Part shown: positions 2,744 to 49,548 of the stretch, one piece after another | Layout: every line of letters begins with the position of its first letter | Position numbering within the stretch: position 1 is the stretch's first letter | Source of the DNA: an uncultured SAR86 cluster bacterium | GTDB taxonomy: Bacteria; Pseudomonadota; Gammaproteobacteria; Magnimaribacterales; AG-339-G14 | DNA: 64,000 nt | Direction of reading: 5' to 3' | NCBI GenBank assembly: GCA_902524805.1 | Contig: CABZES010000001.1 | Coordinates: 1-64,000, forward strand | The notes under the pieces: generated by a model | What the model was told of the DNA's origin: nothing | Seen by the model: only the letters and a program-made list of their open reading frames with translations | The model's database searches: none | Program-made: the position numbers and the translations under genes

Positions 2744-3406
2744 TTTGGGTGTAGGAGTTTAATGTTCATATAACTAAATTAAAACTTGTTTTTTCCAGGT
2801 AATTTACATGTTCCCTTGTGTTCTAAATTTACTTCAAAATCAGGAACCTCTTCATTTGGAAAAATATAAAAAGCGATTTGATTGCTATAAAAACTTCCAG
2901 TTTCTCTATTTATGAATAACTTTTCGGAAACAGAACCCAGATGTACCTCGGAATTAAAATCTTTGCTTAAGAATGAAACATCTTTGTTTCCAAGAGGTTT
3001 GTTAATCCTATTATATTGCCATTCAAAAGAGGCGCTATTTATCTGCATGTCGTCTAGGAGAATCCATTTTGAGGAAAATTTCCTGAAAAAGTATTGATCA
3101 TTAAAAGCAAAATATTGAATCGATTCTCCCCAATCATCTAGTGATTCAAATCCGTTCGGAGAATTGATCTCTTCTGTCTCTGATCCTGTACAAATTAACT
3201 TTATTAAATTTGGTTTTAATTTTTCATAAAGAGAATTTTCTTTTTCAAAAACTGAAATATCTTTATCCGTTATAAGACCAAGAAGATAAAGATCAGGATT
3301 ATCGATAATGTCATTTGTTTGTCCAAAAATATTCATCCCCGTGAGGAAATAAATTATGAGAAAAATGTGAGACAAATTTTTCATTTGGAAAACACCTACA
3401 CCCAAA
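2744..3406. mobile_element. Island module 3: single-gene unit bounded by 17-bp inverted repeats
   Basis: The left end is TTTGGGTGTAGGAGTTT (2744-2760). The right end at 3390-3406 is its inverted copy with one mismatch (16 of 17). Immediately outside each end lies a glmS tail (2721-2741 and 3408-3428). The module carries only one gene, encoding a predicted exported protein. No transposase or recombinase is present. The boundary is seen directly in the sequence; mobility is inferred. Confidence 0.6.
2779..3384 (-). CDS. Predicted secreted protein of unknown function
   Basis: I place the start at the ATG at 3384 rather than the upstream ATG at 3456 of the ORF track. The 24 extra codons would be translated from the displaced glmS tail and inverted repeat, whereas from 3384 the product begins with a classic signal peptide (MKNLSHIFLIIYFLTGMNIFG). 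The mature protein of about 180 residues is acidic, with SFEWQYNRINKP and a C-terminal part containing NLEHKGTCKLPGK. I do not recognise a family. It is the only gene of its module, and the flanking repeats hug it closely. A periplasmic or secreted location is predicted from the signal peptide; nothing further can be said. Confidence 0.6.
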   Translation of the reverse strand: MKNLSHIFLIIYFLTGMNIFGQTNDIIDNPDLYLLGLITDKDISVFEKENSLYEKLKPNLIKLICTGSETEEINSPNGFESLDDWGESIQYFAFNDQYFFRKFSSKWILLDDMQINSASFEWQYNRINKPLGNKDVSFLSKDFNSEVHLGSVSEKLFINRETGSFYSNQIAFYIFPNEEVPDFEVNLEHKGTCKLPGKNKF

Positions 3407-3407
3407 T

Positions 3408-3428
3408 CTACTCCACCGTGACTGATTT
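3408..3428 (-). repeat. Displaced glmS 3' end, copy B
   Basis: The minus strand reads AAATCAGTCACGGTGGAGTAG, again KSVTVE-stop. It sits exactly between the right repeat of module 3 (ending 3406) and the left repeat of module 2 (starting 3429). The tail therefore forms the junction between the two modules. Confidence 0.85.
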
Positions 3429-4629
3429 GATTTGTGTGTGACTGTTTTTTATTCATTTTAAGTTCATGAACCTATTTTTATGATACTCCAAAAAAACTTT
3501 GTCTAATTTGTGCTTTGAGTCTACTGTAAGTTTTTTCCCTTCGAAGTTTTTTAAACCTACTATTTCTAAATTTTCTGGTTCAATATAAAAAGAATAGGCA
3601 TCAAACTGGTCGTGATGATTAGGACATAAACAAAGCATGTTTTCTAGAGTATCGGGTCCATTATGGGGTTTACCTAATCCCTGAATATGTGCGCCGATAG
3701 CAATTCCCATTCCGCCAGGTTTTTCCAAAAAAATTCCGCAAACTTGGCATTTATAATCATAAATATCCTTTATCTTTTCTCTTAAACGAACACTTCGCTG
3801 GACTTTAGTTGTAATTGTCTCTTTTCTTTTTGCAGGCGAATAATCTCTTGGCAGAGTGTCTTGAATATTTTCTTCGATTTCCTGAACAGATTTCTCACTC
3901 TCTAAATGAAATCGACAGATATAGTAACCACTTTTACCCTTTATCCTTTCGTAATCTTTTACGAAAAACAAACCATCATATCTATAACCTTTCTCTGGAC
4001 CGTTTTGAACCTGATATCCTCTTGTTACTCTTACCGGCAAATTATATTCTTTGCTTAAAACCAATCCTTTATTACCTCTTATAAACTCTTGGTCTGATAC
4101 TTGCTTGCCTCCAGGTGAATCCTGACCACCTTGCCCTGTATAAAGAATATAATCGAGTTCATCTACATCATCTTCGTAACCTCCTGATAAGACAATTGAG
4201 CACGCTCCTTCTTTTTCTCTTCCCCAAATTCCATTCATTGGAGGTGTATGAATTCCTGACAAAGAGAGTTCCTCTCTTGATTCAAAGATCTCGCCTTCCT
4301 TTATCCCGGTTATATGACCAAATACAAGGTCAGTATCTTGATTGACCTTCTTAATCATTTTTACTCGGGTTATATCATAGGTTAAGTGATGATGTATCTC
4401 TGAATCGTTCCCTCTATAACCAACTTCATTTGACAATGTGTTTCTATATTCAGAATTTGGTGAATTTATTTCATAAAAAAATTTTCCTTCCTCTCCTATG
4501 AAACTCCATCTTTTTATGTGTTCTTGAGTATGTCTATTTTGATCAATTTCTTTGGAAGTTCTAACAAATTTATCATTATCTTTATATTTCATTTGATTTT
4601 TTAATTCAAAAAACAGTCACACACAAATC
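3429..4629. mobile_element. Island module 2: SRA-HNH gene bounded by perfect 22-bp inverted repeats
   Basis: GATTTGTGTGTGACTGTTTTTT at 3429-3450 is perfectly inverted at 4608-4629. A glmS tail lies directly outside each end (3408-3428 and 4629-4649). The only gene inside is the SRA-HNH endonuclease, which nearly fills the module. No recombinase or transposase gene is present. Movement must depend on a factor supplied elsewhere, or the unit is now immobile. The ends are seen directly; mobility is inferred. Confidence 0.65.
3453..4592 (-). CDS. SRA(YDG)-HNH modification-dependent restriction endonuclease
   Basis: The 379-residue product has an SRA/YDG domain at about 92-240, shown by GHITGIKEGEIFESREELS, SIVLSGGYEDDVD, YTGQGGQD, PVRVTRGYQ and GYRYDGLFFV. 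An HNH nuclease domain follows at about 270-335 (CQVC, AHIQGLGKPHNGPDTLENM, CLCPNHHDQFD), with paired cysteines likely binding zinc. In characterised SRA-HNH proteins the SRA domain flips out 5-methylcytosine or a related modified base and the HNH domain cuts. This makes it a probable type IV restriction enzyme against modified phage DNA. Residues 1-90 are unassigned. No partner methylase is nearby, as expected for type IV. It lies alone between perfect inverted repeats. The exact base recognised cannot be read from the sequence. Confidence 0.85.
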   Translation of the reverse strand: MKYKDNDKFVRTSKEIDQNRHTQEHIKRWSFIGEEGKFFYEINSPNSEYRNTLSNEVGYRGNDSEIHHHLTYDITRVKMIKKVNQDTDLVFGHITGIKEGEIFESREELSLSGIHTPPMNGIWGREKEGACSIVLSGGYEDDVDELDYILYTGQGGQDSPGGKQVSDQEFIRGNKGLVLSKEYNLPVRVTRGYQVQNGPEKGYRYDGLFFVKDYERIKGKSGYYICRFHLESEKSVQEIEENIQDTLPRDYSPAKRKETITTKVQRSVRLREKIKDIYDYKCQVCGIFLEKPGGMGIAIGAHIQGLGKPHNGPDTLENMLCLCPNHHDQFDAYSFYIEPENLEIVGLKNFEGKKLTVDSKHKLDKVFLEYHKNRFMNLK

Positions 4630-47200: not shown

Positions 47201-47215
47201 CTCTGCTATAGTTTT
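47201..47215 (+). promoter_or_regulatory. Candidate extended -10 promoter of the small membrane protein trio
   Basis: CTCTGCTATAGTTTT contains TGxTATAGT, an extended -10 element, 41 bases before the ribosome binding site of the first trio gene. No good -35 box is seen at the right distance. The 99-base gap after the SCO gene would be unusually long for this compact locus without a promoter. Confidence 0.35.
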
Positions 47216-47259
47216 ATTGAGAATTAATCTCATTAGTAACATATTAGGGAGGAGAGAAT

Positions 47260-47670
47260 ATGGAACCAATAGAACTGGCTTTAACAGCCTTTCAAAATGG
47301 CCGAATAATAGATGCTTTATCTTTTATTGGCGTCATAATAGCCATTTGGCTAGCTTTAAGAGTTGCGAACATGACTGGAGAAAATCCAGATAGCAACATA
47401 GCAACTAAAATAGTTTCAACGGCTTTTGGCCTAACTATCGTAGCAGGTACTTGGCAATCATTTACTTTTGCCACAACTACTTGGACAAATTTTGCTAGAA
47501 GATTAACTGATATGGGGTCTGAAAATTGGGGAGATCCAGTTGGAGCTCAAGCTTTAATAGATTATGTAGGTACAACTGAAAATGTTGGCATGCCTACTCC
47601 TTTAGGAATAACGTTTTGTGTAATCGTAGCAATAATGATTATTTCTTTAATTTGGGTGCCGAGAAAATAA
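47260..47670 (+). CDS. Small membrane protein of unknown function, trio member 1
   Basis: The 136-residue protein has a membrane helix near 20-37 (ALSFIGVIIAIWLALRVANM), a second around 50-65 (IVSTAFGLTIVAGTW) and a third at the C-terminus (ITFCVIVAIMIISLIWVPRK). A loop with aromatic and threonine residues (FTFATTTWTNFARRLTDMG) separates the second and third helices. The ribosome binding site GGGAGGAGAGAAT is very strong. It is a diverged paralogue of the next two genes: all three share helix, W-x-A-x-R or W-M-V-F-R-like turn, A-x-K-I-V or K-V-I/K-I-L helix, loop, then W-containing C-terminal helix. I do not recognise the family. Confidence 0.7.
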   Translation: MEPIELALTAFQNGRIIDALSFIGVIIAIWLALRVANMTGENPDSNIATKIVSTAFGLTIVAGTWQSFTFATTTWTNFARRLTDMGSENWGDPVGAQALIDYVGTTENVGMPTPLGITFCVIVAIMIISLIWVPRK

Positions 47671-47682
47671 ATAGGAGGAAAT

Positions 47683-48120
47683 ATGGAAGAAATTACTATA
47701 ACAGGAATCATGGATGCAAATATTGGCTTGCTTCAAGCTAACGCAATTTTTGCTGCAGGAAATATAATTTTACTTTGGATGGTATTTAGAGGAGTTACAA
47801 ACGCAAATTTATACGGTGCAAATCTTTTTTCAAAGGTTATCCACACTGTAATGTCTTTGTGTATTGTATTATTTAATACAGCTACTCTGGGAAATATTAG
47901 TTCTCTGGTAAACAACTGGGCAATGGCTTTGTCTGAATTTGAAGGAGAATTGCCTGGTGGGTTAGCTCAATTTGTTGAAAGAATGGGCGCAACGGAATAT
48001 ACAAATCCAGGTTTAATACCTGAAAATCCAGTTGCTTTAATTTTCTGGATTGCAGTTGTAATAGGCCTTGTTGGTGGAATGTGGACTGCTCCAGAACCAA
48101 AAGAACAAGCAGGAGGATAA
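47683..48120 (+). CDS. Small membrane protein of unknown function, trio member 2
   Basis: The 145-residue protein follows member 1 by 12 bases and has the ribosome binding site AGGAGGAAAT. Its plan repeats that of its neighbours: NAIFAAGNIILLWMVFRGV, then GANLFSKVIHTVMSLCIVLFNTATLGN, a loop (ALSEFEGELPGGLAQFVERMG) and a C-terminal helix (ALIFWIAVVIGLVGGMWTAPEP). It resembles member 3 more than member 1 (FRGV followed by GANL in both). No known function or family is recognised. The strong translation signals suggest a high expression level. Confidence 0.7.
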   Translation: MEEITITGIMDANIGLLQANAIFAAGNIILLWMVFRGVTNANLYGANLFSKVIHTVMSLCIVLFNTATLGNISSLVNNWAMALSEFEGELPGGLAQFVERMGATEYTNPGLIPENPVALIFWIAVVIGLVGGMWTAPEPKEQAGG

Positions 48121-48124
48121 GAAT

Positions 48125-48535
48125 ATGTCAGAACTAGAAATATTAACTCTTATGAATGCTCAATTTACTACAAATGGAGTATTTCTATTCGTGGGAGCAT
48201 TCCTACTATGGGTCGCTTTTAGAGGTGTAATAAGAATTCAGGATCAAGGGGCAAACTTGATACAGAAAATTTTATCTACTTTGTTTTCTTTAGGTATTGT
48301 TTATTTTAATTTGCTGCAGGTAAATTTTATTGGACAAAACTTTGGTAATAGTGCCGGAGCTTTATGTGAATTAGATAGCGTGTCTTCTGGATCGCAAGGT
48401 CTAATTGATTTAATAGGCTGTGATGGAGTAAGTAATTCATTAATTCCTTATGATCCAATTTTTGCTGTTTGGTGGTTAGTTATAACTATCATGCTAATGG
48501 CAGGCATCTGGATGAAAAAGGAAGACCTTTCATAA
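48125..48535 (+). CDS. Small membrane protein of unknown function, trio member 3
   Basis: I place the start at the ATG at 48125 (MSELEILTLMNAQFTTNG), which has AGGAGGATAAGA just upstream. The track start at 48068 would read 19 codons inside member 2. The 136-residue product has FLFVGAFLLWVAFRGVIRI, GANLIQKILSTLFSLGIVYFNLLQ, a loop with two cysteines (ALCELDSVSSGS, LIGCDG) that could form a disulfide, and a C-terminal helix (FAVWWLVITIMLMAGIWMKKEDLS). A terminator follows within a few bases, closing the three-gene unit. Confidence 0.7.
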   Translation: MSELEILTLMNAQFTTNGVFLFVGAFLLWVAFRGVIRIQDQGANLIQKILSTLFSLGIVYFNLLQVNFIGQNFGNSAGALCELDSVSSGSQGLIDLIGCDGVSNSLIPYDPIFAVWWLVITIMLMAGIWMKKEDLS

Positions 48536-48545
48536 AAGTCGAAAT

Positions 48546-48575
48546 AAAAAAGGGGGGTTTTTGCCCTCCTTTTTT
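48546..48575 (+). terminator. Rho-independent terminator after the membrane protein trio
   Basis: AAAAAAGGGGGGTTTTTG is followed by CCCTCCTTTTTT, giving an A/G-rich stem with one G-T wobble, a short T-rich loop and a run of T. On the opposite strand it can equally serve the convergent MDR gene at 48574-49548, whose stop codon lies at its edge. Confidence 0.85.
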
Positions 48576-49548
48576 ACATTTCTATTACAACTTTTCCAGT
48601 AGCTTTTCTATTTTCTAAGGACGATATCGCTTCCGCCGCATCATCTAAAGAATAGCTTTTAGTAATTTGTGGTTTGAGCTTGCCTTCAGCATGAAGGGCA
48701 AATAACTCATCAAAGTTCTTTGAATTCTCTTCAGGCTCTGCGCCTGTAAATCTTCCCCAAAAAACACCCACGATAGAACATCCTTTCAATAATGCTAAAT
48801 TTGTTGGTACCTCAGGGATAGGCCCACTTGCAAAACCGATCACTAGAACTCTTCCTTTCCAATTTACACATCTCATGCATTGTAAAAAAATGTCACCGCC
48901 GATTGGGTCATAAATAACATCTGCTCCTAAGCCATCGGTTAAAGCTTTTACTTTTTCTTTCAATTCGCCATCGCTGTAATTTATAACTTCGTCAGCACCA
49001 AGATTTTTTGCAATTTCTAATTTCTCATCAGTGCTTGCTGCTGCGATAACTTTTGCACCCATAGCTTTGCCAATTTCAATTGCTGTTGTGCCAACTCCTC
49101 CTCCAGCTCCAGTAACCAACAAGGTTTCACCAGCCTGAAGTTGACCCCTCTGTTTTAAAGCATGATAAGTAGTTCCATAATTAAGAGGAAAAGCCGCTCC
49201 ATCTCTAAAATCCATAGTCTCTGGTAAAGGCATTAAGGTCATTTCGAAGGCAACGACTTTCTCAGCAATTCCGCCGTTACCAGTCATAGCAATCACTCGA
49301 TCTCCTATTTTCCAGTCAACAACGCCTTCGCCAACTTCACTGATAACACCTGCTATTTCTCCGCCGGGAGAAAAAGGAAAAGGAGGCTGAAATTGGTATT
49401 TACCTTGAACAATTAAAACATCTGGAAAACTCACTCCTGCAGCCTTTACATCGACAACTACTTGTCCTGCTTCAGCTCTAGGATCTTCTATTTCTTCAAC
49501 CTTATGAGATTCAACTGGTCCAAATTCTTTACATACATATGCTTTCAT
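48574..49548 (-). CDS. MDR-family NADPH:quinone oxidoreductase
   Basis: The 324-residue zinc-free MDR protein starts MKAYVCKEFGPVESHKVEEIEDP, has FPFSPGGEIAGVISEVGEGV and the nucleotide fold LLVTGAGGGVGTTAIEIGKAMGAKVIAAASTDEK. The zinc ligands of alcohol dehydrogenases are absent, so a quinone or enone reductase using NADPH is likely. The substrate cannot be read from the sequence. It is convergent with the trio and shares its terminator. AAGGAGATACG is the ribosome binding site. The gene ten bases downstream of its start region is gshA. Confidence 0.85.
   Translation of the reverse strand: MKAYVCKEFGPVESHKVEEIEDPRAEAGQVVVDVKAAGVSFPDVLIVQGKYQFQPPFPFSPGGEIAGVISEVGEGVVDWKIGDRVIAMTGNGGIAEKVVAFEMTLMPLPETMDFRDGAAFPLNYGTTYHALKQRGQLQAGETLLVTGAGGGVGTTAIEIGKAMGAKVIAAASTDEKLEIAKNLGADEVINYSDGELKEKVKALTDGLGADVIYDPIGGDIFLQCMRCVNWKGRVLVIGFASGPIPEVPTNLALLKGCSIVGVFWGRFTGAEPEENSKNFDELFALHAEGKLKPQITKSYSLDDAAEAISSLENRKATGKVVIEM

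Follow-up and report, generated by a model that had tools for sequence, protein, structure and literature searches.

A candidate Fur-controlled iron-starvation operon for small membrane proteins of a SAR86-specific family

Among the heterotrophs of the surface ocean, SAR86 bacteria are abundant and difficult to bring into culture. The stretch analysed here (the window: 64,000 nt, positions 1 to 64,000 of the forward strand of contig CABZES010000001.1, assembly GCA_902524805.1) comes from an uncultured member of this group and carries, at 47,260-48,575, three consecutive genes for small paralogous membrane proteins. From comparison of these genes and their promoters with those of related genomes, we propose, with a probability of roughly 0.6, that they constitute an iron-starvation operon under Fur control whose products are small, very abundant inner-membrane proteins from a family specific to SAR86. 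Fur operons themselves are known; the new part would be that the product of one is a membrane protein family confined to a single lineage and without known relatives. In what follows, f1 to f4 denote four SAR86 families, f1 being that of the window, g1 to g4 denote genera, and G000 is the window's genome.

A probable Fur box in the promoter

When the upstream regions of the first genes of all arrays are placed side by side, a 15-bp palindrome, TGAGAATNATTCTCA, becomes apparent about 30-35 nt upstream of the ATG. Its form in the window is TGAGAATTAATCTCA, located between the -10 element and the first ribosome binding site, a key feature that was absent from the initial annotation of this DNA. 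The palindrome is rare genome-wide, with 1-7 sites per genome in 15 SAR86 genomes when at most one mismatch is allowed. The stretches around 20 other sites were fetched, and the intergenic ones were inspected for downstream genes. These sites lie upstream of TonB siderophore receptors (L164, L170, L172, L175, L178 and L179), of the FTR1 iron permease (L169 and L173), of the binding protein of an Fe3+ ABC transporter (L176, L180 and L163, the last of these in the window's own genome, G000:C8) and of ferritin/bacterioferritin-like genes (L168, L171 and L174), identities that are backed by Pfam; the remaining fetched sites fall within coding sequence. The SAR86 palindrome resembles the Vibrio-type Fur box, a published example of which, AATGATAATAATTATCATT, is bound by Fur in vitro (PMC7536154). 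Exactly one Fur-family gene (PF01475) is present in each of five genomes, G000 and four relatives; that of G000 lies at C9:27473-27847.

A position weight matrix (PWM) for the Fur box was built from 15 intergenic sites, none of them belonging to the protein family under study. With this matrix, 33 of the 58 first-gene promoters of the family score at least 11.3, although the 58 are not all independent because divergent family genes in f3 share one box; in f1 the box centres lie about 27-41 nt before the ATG. Among 502 screened promoters of the same loci, 15 reach at least 11.4, and 14 of these are the family's own, the single other being that of L081. The f1 promoters share ancestry, and independent support for the box comes from the separate f3 loci. 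Furthermore, 25 of the 28 boxed family promoters have the motif TATA[GTA]T ahead of the palindrome, at a distance of 0-12 nt (mostly 3-7 nt), compared with 17% in shuffles.

Could the palindrome instead be the site of another regulator, be it Zur, PerR or an unrelated protein, or a mere hairpin in the 5' untranslated region (5'-UTR) of an operon that is constitutively expressed? The box does lie within the predicted 5' leader, and some relatives that lack it keep strong ribosome binding sites. This alternative nevertheless appears improbable given that the same motif precedes the TonB siderophore receptor, FTR1 and Fe3+-binding protein genes in the same genomes, and that each genome tested encodes a single Fur-family protein. 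Judging from the shared motif, control of the operon by Fur is highly probable, and it very probably extends over genera g1, g2 and g4 and part of f3. We read the operon as Fur-repressed and of the iron-starvation type because the same motif otherwise precedes iron genes in SAR86. The arrangement is like that of the iron-repressed operons of gammaproteobacterial Fur regulons with their 7-1-7 box, in that TGAGAATNATTCTCA sits next to the -10 element and is common to the iron-uptake genes of the same genomes, but the SAR86 products belong to no known iron-uptake family. Likewise, the FTR1 and Fbp-type ferric uptake genes of SAR86 have the same box in the same genomes, whereas the present family is unrelated to them in sequence and lacks substrate-binding or permease domains.

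The initial annotation had posited a candidate promoter for the unit. This candidate is now refined to the extended -10 element TGCTATAGT (Table 1). A scan with the sigma-70 consensus yielded fewer promoter-like sites than shuffles, and the site that it offered, 47217-47245, would reach as far as the ribosome binding site; the conserved TATAGT was adopted in its stead. Over all relatives, a general search for extended -10 elements did not rise above shuffles; only the search anchored on the box did.

Several observations on the promoters of relatives deserve mention in their own right. The arrays of genus g3 (L007, L018, L020, L044, L133, L134 and L136) occupy the same locus and consist of the same kind of genes without the Fur box; the g3 genome G014 nonetheless has fur and a boxed TonB receptor, a case of regulatory rewiring inside one family. 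In f2, two loci (L082, G067:C10, and L095, G075:C2) show no Fur box upstream of the family gene but a different palindrome, ACCTCA-N4-TGAGGT, immediately ahead of the ribosome binding site; it may be a regulator site or a 5'-UTR hairpin. The boxed promoter of L081 belongs to a gene (3157-3501, minus strand) for a 114-aa protein without a Pfam match that has a strong Fur box, GATGATAATGATTATCATT, and is possibly a further Fur-regulated orphan.

The transcription unit and its translation signals

The features of the unit are collected in Table 1.

Table 1. Genes and predicted control elements of the three-gene unit (window coordinates; ribosome binding sites with duplex energy and rank among 147 open reading frames; TM, transmembrane helices; pLDDT, predicted local distance difference test score)
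Feature	Positions	Strand	Particulars
Extended -10 element TGCTATAGT	47204..47212	+	conserved in relatives; TATA[GTA]T adjoining the palindrome
Fur box TGAGAATTAATCTCA	47218..47232	+	one mismatch to TGAGAATNATTCTCA; PWM score 16.9; centre at -34 from the ATG
Ribosome binding site of gene 1, GGGAGGAG	47247..47254	+	-11.8 kcal/mol; rank 1/147
Gene 1, class A	47260..47670	+	136 aa; 3 TM, predicted N-out C-in; AlphaFold2 pLDDT 86.8
Ribosome binding site of gene 2, AGGAGG	47673..47678	+	-10.2; rank 3/147
Gene 2, class B	47683..48120	+	145 aa; 3 TM; AlphaFold2 pLDDT 88.6
Ribosome binding site of gene 3, AGGAGG	48111..48116	+	-10.3; rank 2/147
Gene 3, class C	48125..48535	+	136 aa; 3 TM
Intrinsic terminator	48545..48576	+	14-pair stem and T-run; closes the unit

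The view of these genes as a self-contained unit of three paralogous membrane proteins of about 140 codons is borne out by the predicted promoter and terminator of their own, by the comparison of protein 2 with proteins 3 (E 6e-17) and 1 (E 0.0015), and by the scores of all three against the family profile (126-153 bits). In most relatives, too, the last family gene is followed by a G+C-rich hairpin with a T-run. Gene 3 starts at the ATG listed in Table 1, not at the TTG 48068 of the mechanical list of open reading frames. Its ribosome binding site lies inside the last codons of gene 2 and doubles as the Gly-Gly codons at the C-terminus of protein 2 (48111-48120).

Very strong and rare GGAGG sites had been noted at the outset and taken to predict high expression, and both claims stand, the first in a stronger form. 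When the 147 open reading frames of a 144-kb sample of this genome (the window plus a further 80 kb) were ranked by the energy of the duplex with the 16S tail, the three genes took the first three places, against a median of -3.7, and they alone have GGAGG upstream. All 113 family genes examined in the four SAR86 families have a GGAG-type site or better, at -6.4 or stronger, with a median of -7.3; the contrast with the -3.7 of the sample is meaningful but imperfectly controlled, since the procedure for choosing starts favours good sites in both sets. In codon usage biased toward that of ribosomal proteins the three genes rank 12, 30 and 32 of 147, which is mild support for high expression because codon bias is weak in this genome. 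On these sequence signals, high expression is to be expected.

Distribution and composition of the arrays

Searches with a family profile, built from 46 and then 50 members, detect the protein family in 145 of the 203 genomes of the SAR86 order, including all 40 of f1. Beyond the order, neither the roughly 365 further genomes of the class nor the 397 further ones of the phylum gave anything above 20 bits; as far as sampled, the family is thus specific to SAR86. The weak matches in other orders (E 0.001-0.1, at most 20 bits) are short, lie inside longer frames or contain stops, and the one that was read, L071, is unlike the family. A viral origin was rejected: neither viral contigs nor phage records yielded relatives, and PHROGs and PADLOC gave no matches.

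In f1 the array stands at a constant locus wherever its neighbourhood was read, and in the window it is flanked on the 5' side by a cytochrome oxidase/haem A/SCO cluster and on the 3' side by a quinone-oxidoreductase-like gene on the opposite strand. In f2, f3 and f4, one to three copies are found at other, differing loci, for instance beside glutamate synthase, with single, dispersed copies among them. By tree and class assignment the f1 paralogues fall into 11 classes, which make up arrays of one to four genes: A B in g2 and A B C in the window; B E, A B2 E, B3 D and C D B3 in g4; B C2 F and D C C2 in g3. As the combinations vary, there is no fixed triplet, and the genes appear from these comparisons to be an interchangeable cassette at one site; pairwise dN/dS (nonsynonymous to synonymous substitution rate) values of 0.01-0.12 indicate purifying selection. 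The suggestion that the three proteins form a hetero-oligomeric complex is weakened accordingly as far as a fixed oligomer is concerned, inasmuch as the constant set of three classes expected of a 1:1:1 assembly is not found, and single copies are dispersed elsewhere.

The neighbourhood of the oxidase genes had been taken as a hint at energy metabolism, and the proteins might accordingly be accessory subunits, either of the adjacent cytochrome c oxidase or more generally of respiratory-chain complexes. The array directly follows the oxidase/haem A/SCO cluster in all f1 members read, and small helical membrane proteins are common as accessory subunits of oxidases. Linkage to cox genes across the order is not observed, however, but is confined to f1, the loci in f2 to f4 being several and unrelated, and the unit has a promoter and terminator of its own; the oxidase neighbourhood is therefore no evidence of a respiratory role. 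Moreover, oxidase function leaves the Fur box unexplained, and the free variation in gene number and class would be unusual for stoichiometric subunits. The hint is not supported, the regulatory evidence indicating iron instead, and we consider the accessory-subunit explanation very improbable.

Two isolated occurrences are of some interest. At L093 (G166), a single family gene follows genes for an HMA-domain protein, a MerT-like protein and a CsoR/RcnR-like small protein (the last recognised by eye), which is a metal-related neighbourhood. At L032/L094 (G109, f2), a class B3 member of the f1 type stands alone in f2 genomes, which looks like transfer between families within SAR86 or a binning error.

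Anatomy of the proteins and the search for relatives

AlphaFold2 models both proteins 2 and 1 with confidence. The model of protein 2 consists of helices 2-44, 48-84, 92-101 and 116-134, and that of protein 1 has the same four-helix layout: two long helices of about 40 residues make a hairpin, after which come a short helix and the third of the membrane helices. The positive-inside rule places the acidic N-terminus (net -1.8) and the likewise acidic loop 74-115 (net -4.1) on the periplasmic side, and the turn after helix 1 (cytoplasmic loop, net +1.4) and the C-terminus on the cytoplasmic side. W134 of protein 2 is the only invariant C-terminal tryptophan, and W32, R36 and K51 are nearly invariant; all four lie at the cytoplasmic membrane surface. 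The shared plan of helices described in the initial annotation is thus retained, while its tryptophan-rich C-terminus reduces to one invariant residue and its FRGV turn is specific to one paralogue class. There is no conserved histidine or cysteine (at most 21% and 36% of the alignment rows, respectively, at any column), which makes a haem or redox enzyme unlikely.

As had been surmised, no recognisable family emerged for these proteins. Searches of Pfam, NCBIfam, PHROGs and PADLOC found no match to the three proteins, and among PDB sequences there is no match below E 0.01, the single weak one being to photosystem I (7zq9, E 0.018). Fold searches returned only common helical-bundle arrangements (best Foldseek E 0.65; best VIA-align Z 8.6, to designed helical bundles). 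The best sub-threshold Pfam match was to CvpA, the colicin V production protein (PF02674; E 0.0008 to 0.004), likewise a small multi-helix inner-membrane protein. It was rejected, with 17.5 bits against a curated cut-off of 29.3 and a profile-profile probability of 2.4% in hhalign (positive control 100%), and SAR86 genomes carry a separate true cvpA. DUF6541, DUF418, LPG_synthase_TM, ActD and other sub-threshold Pfam matches involved few members each, below cut-off, and were treated as generic membrane-helix matches.

Three-helix subunits with an acidic periplasmic mouth under Fur control might form a homo- or hetero-oligomeric cation channel or transporter through which Fe2+ or some other ion would pass the inner membrane. 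Such a function seems quite unlikely, considering that no conserved polar residue is found inside the membrane helices and that Foldseek detects no channel at E 0.001 or better.

A possible role under iron limitation

The following scenario would accommodate Fur control, strong translation and the anatomy of the proteins. When iron is plentiful, Fe-Fur would sit on the transcription start and block the operon; when iron is short, the operon would be released, its mRNA would be translated very efficiently, and the inner membrane would fill with these proteins. Each protein would have a basic base, anchored by tryptophan, arginine and lysine, at the cytoplasmic face, and the N-terminal helix, the extension of helix 2 and the loop would form an acidic head in the periplasm. 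Because the paralogue classes are swapped freely, the proteins may assemble into homo- or mixed oligomers. The role that we favour is that of a non-catalytic inner-membrane assembly in aid of iron acquisition. On its periplasmic side it might, for instance, hold ferric iron or an uptake partner, or present either of them, close to the TonB receptor, Fe3+-binding protein and FTR1 permease with which it is co-regulated. The genomic evidence makes some role in the response to iron limitation likely; direct acquisition of iron, as opposed to another low-iron adaptation, has somewhat less than an even chance.

A number of points weigh against this scenario. The Fur box was not found in genus g3, which shares the f1 locus, nor in f2 and f4, so that Fur control is no constant of the protein family and the core role may exceed iron. 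The box in the window itself has one mismatch. That Fe-Fur acts as a repressor here is an assumption based on where the box lies, and ferritin and bacterioferritin genes, which are usually induced by iron, bear the box as well, so the motif alone is no proof of repression. No conserved metal-ligand residue was found in the proteins, and direct binding of iron would thus require a diffuse acidic surface; oligomerisation, for its part, is a guess from the anatomy.

The main rival to a role in iron acquisition is a low-iron adaptation of the membrane other than uptake, in which an abundant spacer, antenna-like or protective protein would occupy vacated membrane area or shield other complexes when iron-rich respiratory proteins fall. 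Iron control, apparent abundance, swappable paralogues and the lack of catalytic residues would all suit such a protein, and proteorhodopsin, which could profit from it, is encoded in 161 of the 203 SAR86 genomes. The comparison that comes to mind is the cyanobacterial iron-stress chlorophyll protein IsiA, by analogy only: both would be abundant membrane proteins induced by iron stress, but the SAR86 family has no relation to IsiA in sequence or fold and no evidence of pigment. Indeed, there is no signature of pigment or cofactor binding, and co-occurrence with rhodopsin is loose: in G072 and G162 (92% and 96% complete) rhodopsin is present and no family member was found, whereas G009, G027 and G044 have a family member and no rhodopsin was found. 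The idea of a rhodopsin partner was rejected because the co-occurrence is not tight, and the adaptation as a whole appears rather unlikely.

If iron acquisition is nevertheless kept in view beside protection, the most far-reaching version of our proposal, which we put forward tentatively on the strength of sequence comparison, is a low-iron membrane machine specific to SAR86, in which interchangeable three-helix proteins released by Fur would become a major component of the inner membrane and would capture or pass on ferric iron, or else protect the membrane, through a mechanism unlike any known one.

Implications

Iron limits much of the surface ocean, and in the California Current SAR86 TonB transporters for Fe-ligand complexes are reported to be among the genes that respond to iron addition (PMC11069385). 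The family described here is kept throughout SAR86, is invisible to current annotation and is Fur-boxed in two of the four SAR86 families, and the regulatory finding makes the iron question testable in existing iron-addition metatranscriptomes. Should these proteins prove to be part of the iron response, they would allow iron stress of SAR86 specifically to be read directly from metatranscriptomes and would represent a new type of iron-linked membrane protein.
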